A DNA stretch of 60,925 nt from Clostridiales bacterium Firm_16 (GTDB taxonomy: Bacteria > Bacillota > Clostridia > Saccharofermentanales > Saccharofermentanaceae). Below, piece after piece: positions 4,093 to 17,811 of the stretch (the stretch's first letter is position 1; each line of letters begins with the position of its first letter). The translations under genes were made by a program, and so were the position numbers. Below the pieces are notes generated by a model, which was not told the origin of the DNA, ran no database searches, and saw only the letters and a list, made by a program, of their open reading frames with translations. The stretch is from the NCBI GenBank assembly GCA_001604185.1, contig LVAV01000100.1, positions 1 to 60,925 on the forward strand. Direction: 5' to 3'.

Positions 4093-6333
4093 ATGAGAGA
4101 AAAACTGATACGAAAAAAGAACGTGAAAAATATCATTAAACTGACGAGACGACTCGGGTCGATCGTGTGTGCTTTGGCGGTGTTGGTGTCTATGACAGGC
4201 TGCCATAAAGCTGGGGCGAAGAAGCAGAAAGAGTATCGTATTGTGAAGGAGTCAGATCCGTATTTTGCGGCGGACGAAGTGGAACTTCAGATCCCGCTAA
4301 AGGAGGGGAAGGAACTGCAGCAGCTTCTGGTACATGAACCACAGATCACCGAGGATCAGGTCCGATTCGAATATGATGCATCGTATAAAGTTCCGAAGGA
4401 ACTTGATGACAAGCAGTATCTGTGTGCGCAGGGGATCGACAACTTCACGGAGGAAGAACGCCTTGCTATCTGGGAAGAGTGGATCAGCTATTTTGACGAG
4501 GGTGTCGCGATCTTCGATCTTGACGGGAACTTCCTCGGTGTAGAGAAAGATGAGACGGATGCGGACAAGGATATACCGCAAGAGGGAAAGGACATGGGCT
4601 TGTTCGACGCCCAAACTCTCCGTGACGGAAGGGTCCTTGCCTGGAGCTATGAAAAGATAGTGCTTTTCGATAAGAATGGCAAAACTCTGGCTACATATTT
4701 CCCGGAAACGTTCGGAATGAGAGTCTATGTAGTAGGCGATCAGGTTTTCGTCAGCGGAAGAAACTATGACGAAGAGAAGCCGGAGAAAACCTATGACTAT
4801 CTTCAGGAACTGGATGATCAGACGCTGAAGAAAAAAGGTGAGCGTATAAAGCTTTCGGGCTCGGGCAATGCGGATAGTATCTGCGCGAGCGGGAAGGGGA
4901 TCTTCGTGATGAATTCTGATGGGATCTATCAGATTGATACTGCGAGCGGAAAGGAGGAAAGTTTCCTTCTTTGGAGTGACACGGATCTTAACTATGTGGG
5001 CATCATCGGTGAAGGTGCACAGGTCGGTGAAGATACGTGCCGCCTCATCAAATACACGGATGAAACCATCGATGAGCAAGGGCACATGGTCATGCATGTT
5101 TCGCTCGTTACTCTCACGAAAGAACAGAAGAATCCGCATGCCGGCAAAATCGTGATCGAGCTGGGCGATGGGCGAGAAAACGATGCAGATCTGATAGAAG
5201 CCGTTGTTGCTTACAACAAGATCCCGGACAGGAAGGTGCGTATCCAGGTGCATGATTATTCTACTTACGCGCAGGCAGCCGGCGCCTATGAAGCCGCCAT
5301 TTCCACAATTGCAGATATGGTGTATCTCGATATGCTTGCAGGTACCGGTCCGGATATCCTTGTGAACTTCGGCAGCAGTCCGTCCTTCCAATCCGACAGG
5401 ATCCTTCTGGATCTGACGCCCTATCTGTCCGGTGAGCAGGGACTTTCCGATGCGGAGTATTACCGTTCGCTTCTACACGCATATGAAAAGAACGGGAAGA
5501 TCTTCCATCTTCCGACGAGTGTGGAACTTCTCGGATTCTGGGGGAATAAGGACTACCTGCCGGACGCGCCATCCTTCTCTTCTTCGGATCTTGATGCGAT
5601 CCGCGCGACGCTTCCGCAGAATATGCAGCTCCTTCCGGAGATGGAATACGACGATCTTCTGGAAGAGCTTTTGTCACAGAAACTGGGGCGCTATATCGAT
5701 CCGCAGAATGGACGTGCGGACTTCTCTGATGCCTCTTTTGCTGCAATTCTTGAAACGGTGAAAAAGTACGGTTCGCATGTGGAACGTCCGGAGGTCGAAT
5801 TGGTCGAAGATTATCTGGCCAAAGAACCCCGGACGCTTATTAACGAGGGCATGGTTGCGATGATCCCATACACGATCTCATTGCCGGAGGATTACAAGAA
5901 TTGTCTTGCGCTTAGAAGCGGAAAGGGCGGCATATATGCTTTCGGGAATGAGGCGCAAGCCGGCATGGCGATCAACAGCCGGATGACGGTCGCTATCTCG
6001 GCGAATACTTCCTATGTTCAGGAAGCATGGGACTTTATCCGGACACTTTTCGGTGAGGAGAATCAGATGAACTTCGCGCAGAGCCTTGGGGGGATTCCTG
6101 TATCACGAAGCGCAGTGGATGCGCTGTGCGGAAAGGCCGGCATGACCGGGCAGGAGGCAAGTGCTTTTGCCAAAGAATTGGAAAGACCGCATGAGGTGCG
6201 CGTTCTTGACGATGCGGTCATGGACATCGTGAAGGAGGAAGCGAAAGGCTACTTCATGGGACAGAAAGACGTGAACACCGTGGTCAGCACGATCCAGAAC
6301 CGCGTCGCGATGGTCCTGAAGGAGCGGGGCTGA
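4093..6333 (+). CDS. Second lipoprotein with C-terminal solute-binding domain (paralog)
   Basis: A 746-residue lipoprotein with an extended basic N-terminus and a lipobox ending SMTGC (Cys about residue 37). The architecture matches the preceding gene: a beta-rich N-terminal region, then from about residue 346 (NPHAGKIV) a solute-binding-protein-like domain containing GTGPDILVNF and EAWDFIRTLF. Overall identity to its paralog is only moderate, so the duplication is old and the two may bind different ligands. It follows by 66 bp, probably in the same transcript, with AAAGGA at 4087-4092 close to the ATG. No transporter genes accompany it. A sensory or ligand-presenting role is possible but unproven. 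Confidence 0.78.
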   Translation: MREKLIRKKNVKNIIKLTRRLGSIVCALAVLVSMTGCHKAGAKKQKEYRIVKESDPYFAADEVELQIPLKEGKELQQLLVHEPQITEDQVRFEYDASYKVPKELDDKQYLCAQGIDNFTEEERLAIWEEWISYFDEGVAIFDLDGNFLGVEKDETDADKDIPQEGKDMGLFDAQTLRDGRVLAWSYEKIVLFDKNGKTLATYFPETFGMRVYVVGDQVFVSGRNYDEEKPEKTYDYLQELDDQTLKKKGERIKLSGSGNADSICASGKGIFVMNSDGIYQIDTASGKEESFLLWSDTDLNYVGIIGEGAQVGEDTCRLIKYTDETIDEQGHMVMHVSLVTLTKEQKNPHAGKIVIELGDGRENDADLIEAVVAYNKIPDRKVRIQVHDYSTYAQAAGAYEAAISTIADMVYLDMLAGTGPDILVNFGSSPSFQSDRILLDLTPYLSGEQGLSDAEYYRSLLHAYEKNGKIFHLPTSVELLGFWGNKDYLPDAPSFSSSDLDAIRATLPQNMQLLPEMEYDDLLEELLSQKLGRYIDPQNGRADFSDASFAAILETVKKYGSHVERPEVELVEDYLAKEPRTLINEGMVAMIPYTISLPEDYKNCLALRSGKGGIYAFGNEAQAGMAINSRMTVAISANTSYVQEAWDFIRTLFGEENQMNFAQSLGGIPVSRSAVDALCGKAGMTGQEASAFAKELERPHEVRVLDDAVMDIVKEEAKGYFMGQKDVNTVVSTIQNRVAMVLKERG

Positions 6334-6381: not shown

Positions 6382-6662
6382 ACCGAAGGGTTTCACCTTG
6401 ATTTCGGTTTGTTTTCTCAATTCCGCGTTCTAAGCCGAATTTTCAGGCTTTGTTTTCGGTTTGTATTCGCAAATGTGTTTCCCGCGCCGAAGTAACTTGA
6501 TTTTATTTCGGTTTATTTTTTCACTTTTTCATTCTAAGCCGAAAATATATGCTTAAACTTCGGTTCAAAAGTGAGAATATGCGTTTTGCGCCGAAATGGC
6601 TCAATTCGACTTCGGTTTACAATCCTATTTTGTAGCTCTGCGCCGAAGTGGCAAGCCTATAT
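6382..6662. repeat. Non-coding array 1: TTCGG/CCGAA inverted motifs with a 52-bp period
   Basis: TTCGG (mostly TTCGGTTT) starts at 6403, 6455, 6507, 6559 and 6611, exactly 52 bp apart each time. CCGAA (within GCCGAA, GCGCCGAA or ACCGAA) starts at 6383, 6435, 6487, 6539, 6591 and 6643, also exactly 52 bp apart. The unit is TTCGG-N27-CCGAA-N15. The N27 and N15 segments are essentially unrelated between units. This accounts for most of the 429-bp gap between the second lipoprotein gene and tRNA-Thr. No ORF follows the period, and 52 is not a multiple of three. Function unknown. Confidence 0.9.
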
Positions 6663-6720
6663 GACTCTCCCATAAAGCGGGCACGCAAAGCCAACTGGAT
6701 TATTGTGCTTTTCCCGAAAA

Positions 6721-6757
6721 ACAAGAAACCCCGTAACCGTTGTGGTTACGGGGTTTT
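6721..6757 (-). terminator. Rho-independent terminator of tRNA-Thr
   Basis: Inverted repeat of about 12 bp (CCCCGTAACC at 6729-6738 with GGTTACGGGG at 6744-6753) and a 5-nt loop. Read on the minus strand it is followed by a T-rich run, directly downstream of the tRNA. Confidence 0.85.
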
Positions 6758-6762
6758 CGCTA

Positions 6763-6838
6763 TGGAGCCGATTGCGAGACTCGAACTCGCGACCTGCTGA
6801 TTACAAATCAGCTGCTCTACCAACTGAGCTAAGTCGGC
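6763..6838 (-). tRNA. tRNA-Thr (anticodon UGU)
   Basis: On the minus strand the 76-nt sequence starts GCCGACTTAGCTCAG and ends in an encoded CCA. D-arm, T-arm (GGTTCGA-like GAGTTCGAGTCTC) and acceptor pairing GCCGA/TCGGC are intact. The anticodon stem CTGAT/ATCAG encloses TTTGTAA, giving anticodon TGT and threonine. It has its own promoter and terminator. Confidence 0.95.
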
Positions 6839-17557: not shown

Positions 17558-17811
17558 TTCGGTTTAGAAGTCCATTCTTGCATTTTGCGCCGAAGTTCGA
17601 AACGCCCACTTCGGCGTGGATCTGAATCTTGGCGATATAAGCCGAAGTTTTCGTGGTGTATTTCGGTTTGAAAACGCAATTCGGGAAAACACGCCGAAAA
17701 TTTCACCGATTTTTTTCGGCGCAAATCCGCTTTTTGGCGATTTAAACCGAAATCAATAGGTTTTACTTCGGTTTTATTCTTCGATATTAAGTATTGCGCC
17801 GAAACCCGAAT
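17558..17811. repeat. Non-coding array 2: TTCGG/CCGAA inverted motifs with a 52-bp period
   Basis: TTCGG starts at 17558, 17610, 17662, 17715 and 17767; CCGAA starts at 17590, 17642, 17694, 17747 and 17799. Steps are 52, 52, 53 and 52 bp for both motifs, with the same N27/N15 geometry as the array at 6382-6662. The single 53-bp step results from one extra base in the N15 gap at 17699-17714. Bases flanking each CCGAA-N15-TTCGG pair are complementary: GCGCCGAAGT with ACTTCGGCGT, CGCCGAAAA with TTTTCGGCG, AAACCGAA with TTCGGTTT. It fills most of the 442-bp gap between the amidase gene and the GGGtGRT gene. Confidence 0.9.

Follow-up and report, generated by a model that had tools for sequence, protein, structure and literature searches.

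A 60,925-nucleotide stretch of DNA from Clostridiales bacterium Firm_16 (contig LVAV01000100.1; hereafter the window) contains a locus where the short words TTCGG and CCGAA alternate at fixed steps, which raises the question of what kind of element this is and what holds its words and its spacing in place. A sequence-only reading of this locus claimed an exact 52-bp period built of five TTCGG and six CCGAA words with gaps of 27 and 15 nt. The word positions bear this out, with TTCGG at 6403, 6455, 6507, 6559 and 6611, CCGAA at 6383, 6435, 6487, 6539, 6591 and 6643, and a step between like words that is always 52 bp. We refer to this locus as array 1 (Table 1). The pattern TTCGG-N27-CCGAA occurs ten times in the window versus 0.19 times expected from dinucleotide shuffles, where at most one match was seen in any of 100 shuffled sequences. 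Five of these ten matches fall in a second array (array 2) that is absent from the earlier reading and that contains one step of 53 bp, with the other steps being 52 bp. Tandem Repeats Finder reported no 52-bp array in the window, indicating that the copies inside array 1 are too diverged for tandem-repeat detection, and a search of the window against Rfam at gathering scores returned nothing but tRNA. Array 1 is located between the 3' end of a gene coding for an extracellular solute-binding protein (4093-6333) and the 3' end of a tRNA-Thr gene, and array 2 is located between two minus-strand genes.

Table 1. Positions of the array sites and of neighbouring features in the window.
Feature	Position	Strand	Basis
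Array 1: leading half-site followed by five inverted-repeat sites, 52-bp period	6383..6647		word positions, pattern count, homology
Array 1 leading half-site CCGAA	6383..6387		word position
Array 1 site 1 (TTCGG-N27-CCGAA)	6403..6439		pattern match, dyad alignment
Array 1 site 2	6455..6491		pattern match, dyad alignment
Array 1 site 3	6507..6543		pattern match, dyad alignment
Array 1 site 4	6559..6595		pattern match, dyad alignment
Array 1 site 5	6611..6647		pattern match, dyad alignment
Terminator-like hairpin between tRNA gene and array 1	6726..6756	-	hairpin scoring
tRNA-Thr(tgt), 3' end toward array 1	6763..6838	-	Rfam/tRNA match
Array 2: five sites, period 52 bp, one step 53	17558..17803		pattern match, dyad alignment
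Array 2 site 1	17558..17594		pattern match
Array 2 site 2	17610..17646		pattern match
Array 2 site 3	17662..17698		pattern match
Array 2 site 4	17715..17751		pattern match
Array 2 site 5	17767..17803		pattern match

Words and spacing within the genome

The genome to which the window belongs (G000; 3.72 Mb in 117 contigs, with a contamination estimate of 5.4 %) was searched for the three-motif pattern CCGAA-N14..16-TTCGG-N26..28-CCGAA. A genome-wide count had been set beforehand as a point on which the array claim could fail, and the search gave 31 forward matches versus 0 in a reversed control. Matches are present on contigs C2, C13, C24, C40, C66, C95, C96 and C100, the last of which is the window contig. 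Note that TTCGG is not the sole word in use, which modifies the earlier description: the geometry occurs with several words, and G000 also uses TTCAGTCG, GACTAAA and CCGTC. For example, TTCAGTCG-N22-CGACTGAA forms arrays with a period of 53 bp that adjoin the TTCGG arrays on C24 and C40 and that stand alone on C54.

An array on C40 is homologous to array 1, with 219 of 265 positions identical, no indel, and BLAST homology that stops at the array ends. All differences between the two are in the gaps, with 0 of 55 motif positions and 46 of 210 gap positions changed (Fisher p 7e-6). In this pair the words and the spacing are conserved while the gap sequence drifts, which supports the earlier claim that selection acts on motif and spacing. 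The same homology bears on the claim that the gap sequences are almost unrelated. This does not hold everywhere, as gap sequence has been inherited between arrays. Array 1 (window 6383-6838 with its tRNA-Thr gene) and its C40 homologue (L066 4931-5501 with a tRNA-Val gene) each lie downstream of the tRNA gene at a distance of ~100 bp, in equal orientation to it.

Whole arrays are also dispersed in this genome, with those on C2, C13 and C66 being 94-97 % alike. These three have a common flank starting with GGTTCTTCACGGAAAG (in C2 at 4812-5260 of L063, which spans G000:C2:118000-128000; also in L064 and L067), and in C2 the element is bordered by a similar end in inverted orientation and by what may be a duplication of GTCTTTTTATATG, as in a miniature transposon. 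Two more places on C54 carry the GGTTCTTCACGGAAAG flank with the array reduced or absent. A tentative homology between the TTCGG arrays and a GACTAAA array, based on a common TTCGAGCCGCGC, extends over no more than 12 bases with an E value of 0.025 and is not claimed here.

A concerted change of word is observed between the homologous arrays of C66 and C111 (L067 and L080), which differ at six of ten motifs, always as TTCGG versus TTCAG. This pattern, together with the uniformity of the words inside an array, would be produced by mutational homogenisation, where template switching at quasi-palindromes equalises the arms within an array and no function is involved. Homogenisation leaves unexplained the constant period, the lack of indels, the A+T-rich dyad and the clustering of distances at 10.6-bp multiples described below, and we consider it very improbable.

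Arrays in related species

Several species of the genus have arrays with a period of 52-54 bp that are built of other words (TGGGACTAAA, TGGTACTAAA, TACGACTAAA and GATAAGATCA). Conservation of the spacing in relatives was the second point on which the earlier claim could fail, and the spacing is indeed kept in several related species, but the exact TTCGG geometry is present in only one of 115 family genomes, namely G000 itself.

The turnover of words is particularly evident downstream of rpmE, which codes for ribosomal protein L31 and which was compared across 16 species of the genus. This region has arrays of TGGGACTAAA in G098, TGGTACTAAA in G094, TACGACTAAA in G100, CGACTGTA in G105 and GCACTT in G093, inverted-repeat arrays with a period of 81-82 bp in G109, G111 and (partly masked) G095, and a single inverted pair in G106. 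A different gene is found there in G102 and G107, whereas in G000, G099, G103, G097 and G112 the region holds no more than a spacer of 135-173 bp. In rpmE, G098 has 99-99.5 % identity to each of G095, G100, G109 and G111, and yet an array word is common only to G095 and G111, indicating that word turnover is fast. The 81-82 bp arrays (L091 from G111, L093 from G109 and L089 from G095) consist of two direct copies 11-12 bp apart plus one inverted copy, and use the words TTTCCA or CTCACCT. A switch of word is also seen in G104 (L146, 16630-17255), where a block of GATAAGTTCA adjoins one of GATAAGATCA with the normal step between them and the spacing is kept. Finally, additional arrays are present outside the rpmE locus in G098 and in G000.

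Arrays were also sought with a word-free detector that scores 7-base words with at most one mismatch and at least five alternating copies at a period of 48-58 bp. This gave five arrays in 461 kb of G000 (the window, C28:1-240k and C54:1-160k), one double array in 600 kb of G104 and two arrays in 546 kb of G098. There were none in samples of G099 (178 kb), G105 (118 kb) and G094 (127 kb), with the known G105 and G094 arrays being outside of these samples, and none in a 147-kb sample of G066, which belongs to another genus. One local shuffle of 1.26 Mb gave 0 arrays. The period is constant within most arrays, and arrays with periods of 62, 74 or 82 bp would escape a detector limited to 48-58 bp.

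A search of genome contigs gave seven stretches (L046-L052). One of these, L052 (LVBD01000061.1), is filed under a Spirochaetales bin and contains a C66-type array with a gene block ordered as in this genus and having 71-73 % DNA identity to G105; judged by its gene order, it is probably a mis-binned contig that belongs to this genus. The alphaproteobacterial stretches L050 (6645-6806) and L046 (6425-6565) have short 52-53 bp runs with TTCGG and CCGAA whose copies differ by only a few bases, and these were set aside as simple tandem repeats. No array was seen in L047, L048, L049 and L051, and a script detected none in the one viral contig retrieved.

Helical phase and the geometry of the sites

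The spacing was analysed in more detail for the word GACTAAA, which occurs as the inverted pair GACTAAA-N15..18-TTTAGTC. Within the family (f1) there are 164 such pairs versus 22 in reversed controls, carried by 27 of 115 genomes, as compared to five pairs in 5 of 73 genomes versus 16 controls in three other families of the order. G000 has 18 pairs and G098 has 20 (controls 0), G090 has 30 (control 1), G042 has 17, and G005 and G007 have 11 each (controls 0). A second word, GTCTAAA, was tried as a replicate for the gap and phase rule but shows no such enrichment in the family, with 20 pairs versus 50 in reversed controls and gaps scattered from 11 to 34, and is therefore uninformative on this rule. 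When the allowed GACTAAA gap was widened from 15-18 to 6-36 in 12 carrier genomes, the count went from 140 to 141 matches (13 in reversed controls), indicating that this inverted pair has a fixed gap. Among 147 listed pairs the gap is 16 in 98, 17 in 31 and 15 in 18. These 147 of the 164 f1 pairs are the basis of the gap and phase analysis, with 16 unlisted pairs, G069:C263 and the five pairs from other families left out. The gap sequence is variable with an A+T-rich centre. Specifically, a central A-tract is present in 50 of 66 N16 gaps from other genomes versus a shuffle mean of 10.6 (maximum 24 in 2000 shuffles) and in 0 of 14 gaps from G000, as counted in 80 deduplicated N16 strings that were typed from the listings and form a subset of the listed pairs.

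The distances between neighbouring GACTAAA pairs are 51.5-54, 62-63, 72-75, 85, 104-106.5, 115-117 and 137 bp, with longer ones of 148-149.5, 156, 159, 191, 212 and 275 bp. When periods from 6 to 20 bp were tried on the 70 distances of at most 300 bp, the best common period was 10.6 bp with a Rayleigh R of 0.91, and the clustering holds after deduplication (R of 0.89 for 50 distances taken once per contig and 0.87 for 33 taken once per genome). At 10.55 bp the phase is 0.00-0.01, and the distances of 72 and 156 bp deviate by 0.2-0.3 turn with the others being closer. Because these distances are related by descent, and because some of them are multiples of the most frequent distance, nominal p-values overstate the effect; the agreement is that of about ten distance classes. 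The helical repeat of B-DNA is 10.6 bp, and the arrays are most likely constrained by the phase of the double helix. Note that the 81-82 bp arrays, with a period of ~7.7 turns, do not fit this whole-turn rule that GACTAAA follows.

Alignment of arrays on their dyads reveals a common slot for words of different sequence. Of the 26 arrays tried, 25 have half-sites that start at a distance of 16-20 bp from the dyad, and the remaining one, on C6 of G000, gave no pair with the chosen word. TTCGG occupies positions 18-14 from the dyad, TTCAGTCG starts from 18 or 19, TGGGACTAAA, TGGTACTAAA and TACGACTAAA occupy 18-9, and GATAAGATCA occupies 20-11. In this alignment the half-sites are ~2.5 turns apart. 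The central five bases have an A+T fraction of 0.55-1.00 in 25 arrays and of 0.67-1.00 at the 27-nt dyad of nine TTCGG arrays, with several arrays, such as those of G100 and C24b and C54c of G000, being at just 0.55-0.65. The dyad was picked array by array before the slots were aligned, with A+T content deciding in the TTCGG and TTCAG classes (27-nt dyad). With the alternative dyad these words sit nearer the centre, and thus the common slot rests on the choice of dyad and is support, not proof, for one site geometry.

These results lead us to favour, with moderate confidence, an array of 37-bp inverted-repeat sites that recur every 52-53 bp, a whole number of turns, as an intergenic row on one helix face for a putative dimeric binder. 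In this model each protein dimer would contact a pair of half-sites separated by ~27 bp, with an A+T-rich and bendable centre between them. Binding would be cooperative, and successive dimers would sit on the same face at intervals of five turns in this genome and, among related species, of six, seven, eight or ten turns. The earlier claim that all motifs lie on one face is thus revised: the distances of the related word GACTAAA do cluster at 10.6-bp multiples, but it is the whole inverted-repeat sites, not the single motifs, that would share a face. A single protein of one specificity is insufficient to account for the several words used by G000, and we infer that different words are read by relatives of one protein whose base preference has drifted.

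The earlier reading offered a chain of RNA hairpins as an alternative, and such a chain, formed by RNA or by single-stranded DNA with the words as stem arms whose pairing maintains their complementarity, would account for the words being mutually complementary. The array 1 RNA fold has a z of -2.43 on the plus strand (6 of 200 shuffles as good) and -1.74 on the minus strand (11 of 200), one array 1 pair followed by a T-run (6486-6512) scores as a terminator-like hairpin, and there is one matched double change in G094, where TGGGACTAAA occurs with TTTAGTCCCA inside the TGGTACTAAA array. However, for most deviating copies in G104 and in the TTCAGTCG arrays neither partner carries a matching change (judged by eye from the copy table), and a strict base-pairing constraint is not supported, with motif changes being mostly uncompensated. 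The helical clustering and the shared slot about an A+T-rich dyad are also features of double-stranded DNA, and such clustering is not expected from hairpins. We therefore do not favour a hairpin chain and regard it as improbable relative to a row of protein-binding sites.

Gene context and comparison with known systems

All 20 arrays examined are located between main open reading frames, and the only overlaps, in six of them, are with short mechanical ORFs of 84-122 amino acids. Fifteen are between tandem genes, three between convergent genes and one between apparently divergent ORFs, with one having no assigned type, and 18 of the 20 adjoin at least one 3' gene end. This context was taken from mechanical ORFs and from rpmE gene order, and the downstream gene is inferred for L087, L098 and L100. 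A Pfam scan of 28 proteins near 11 arrays (array 2 and the C2, C13 and C24 arrays being left out) gave metabolic, regulatory, cell-surface or unassigned proteins. Families that recur are aldo/keto reductase and ferredoxin-type domains (two arrays), solute-binding proteins and DUF4214, all of which are common families, and these 28 proteins include no evident binder and show no common pathway. Because most arrays are beside a 3' gene end and their neighbours share no pathway, our best guess is that the putative row of dimers has an architectural or insulating purpose at gene ends, where a nucleoprotein patch would stiffen or loop the DNA or block read-through between transcription units. This is the least certain step of the proposal. 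The earlier reading of a cooperatively bound array that is architectural, partition-like or regulatory is strengthened by the helical phase and by selection on the motifs. Its partition-like option is less favoured, with no ParA or ParB among the scanned neighbours and many arrays per genome.

The plasmid centromere sopC of F is also an array of tandem inverted-repeat sites for a dimer at a fixed period. The arrays studied here differ in that a genome has many of them with different words, and in that the 28 proteins scanned near 11 arrays include no parAB-type partition genes. The res site of serine resolvases (Tn3/gamma-delta) has inverted sub-sites for dimers with a distance between sites I and II of ~53 bp that must stay at whole turns, and so resembles these arrays in symmetry and distance. 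In contrast, the arrays are long uniform runs with no recombinase among the scanned neighbours and no crossover geometry shown. They resemble CRISPR in having short constant words with changing sequence between them at a constant period. However, CRISPR has identical direct repeats with unrelated spacers, and Tandem Repeats Finder detected no such repeats here; the array words are 5-11 bp long and alternate in orientation, and the gap sequences are inherited between arrays. In the literature that was searched, no paper describing arrays of this geometry was listed.

The nearest known kind is REP/BIME, whose inverted units are likewise intergenic, species-specific, present in many copies and alternating at regular spacing. 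Alternation at regular spacing was observed in the 23 arrays tabulated, and all 20 arrays examined are extragenic. As a rival to the dimer row, a BIME-like selfish repeat would consist of inverted units spread by a transposase, with the symmetry kept by the mobilising enzyme and not by a cellular function. The dispersal of whole arrays in G000 agrees with this, as does their patchy distribution; a spread such as that of GACTAAA, in 27 of 115 family genomes, is more usual for mobile repeats than for essential architecture. Described BIMEs are regularly spaced REPs in alternating orientation (PMC2817692), and the known REP superfamilies carry a GTAG or CGTC tag, the first being tied to RAYT transposases (PMC3733652). 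The Y1 transposase domain PF01797 was found in 4 of 23 genomes of the genus, including the array carrier G105, which has two. Against a BIME-like origin, PF01797 was not found in G000 or in the five other carriers G093, G094, G098, G100 and G104 (assemblies 79-98 % complete), and the RAYT hypothesis is thus not supported. An inspection of 25 array consensuses out to 26 bp from the dyad found neither tag on an imperfect palindrome, although the C54 word contains CGTC. Furthermore, the word varies between arrays, and repeat spread alone does not predict the clustering of GACTAAA distances at helical-repeat multiples. We regard a BIME-like origin as rather unlikely. Some of its behaviour may be BIME-like, but we do not class the element as a BIME.

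The element is real, its period is kept across several species of the genus, and one of its words is enriched across the family. Bacterial intergenic repeats are usually taken to be selfish or to form RNA hairpins. Here the period survives a change of word, and the spacing follows a rule of double-stranded DNA. We tentatively propose, as a possibility that we hold with less confidence than the dimer row itself, that the arrays are a new class of chromosomal element: a helix-phased lattice for a putative family of dimers with a rigid geometry, where half-sites cover the positions ~18 to 9 bp away from a dyad rich in A+T, dimers sit every 5, 6, 7, 8 or 10 turns, and the word drifts by array and by species so that each array would be a private docking track. 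If so, these arrays would be a case of a chromosomal protein lattice, and of the co-evolution of a DNA-binding protein with its many dispersed sites, that is open to testing.
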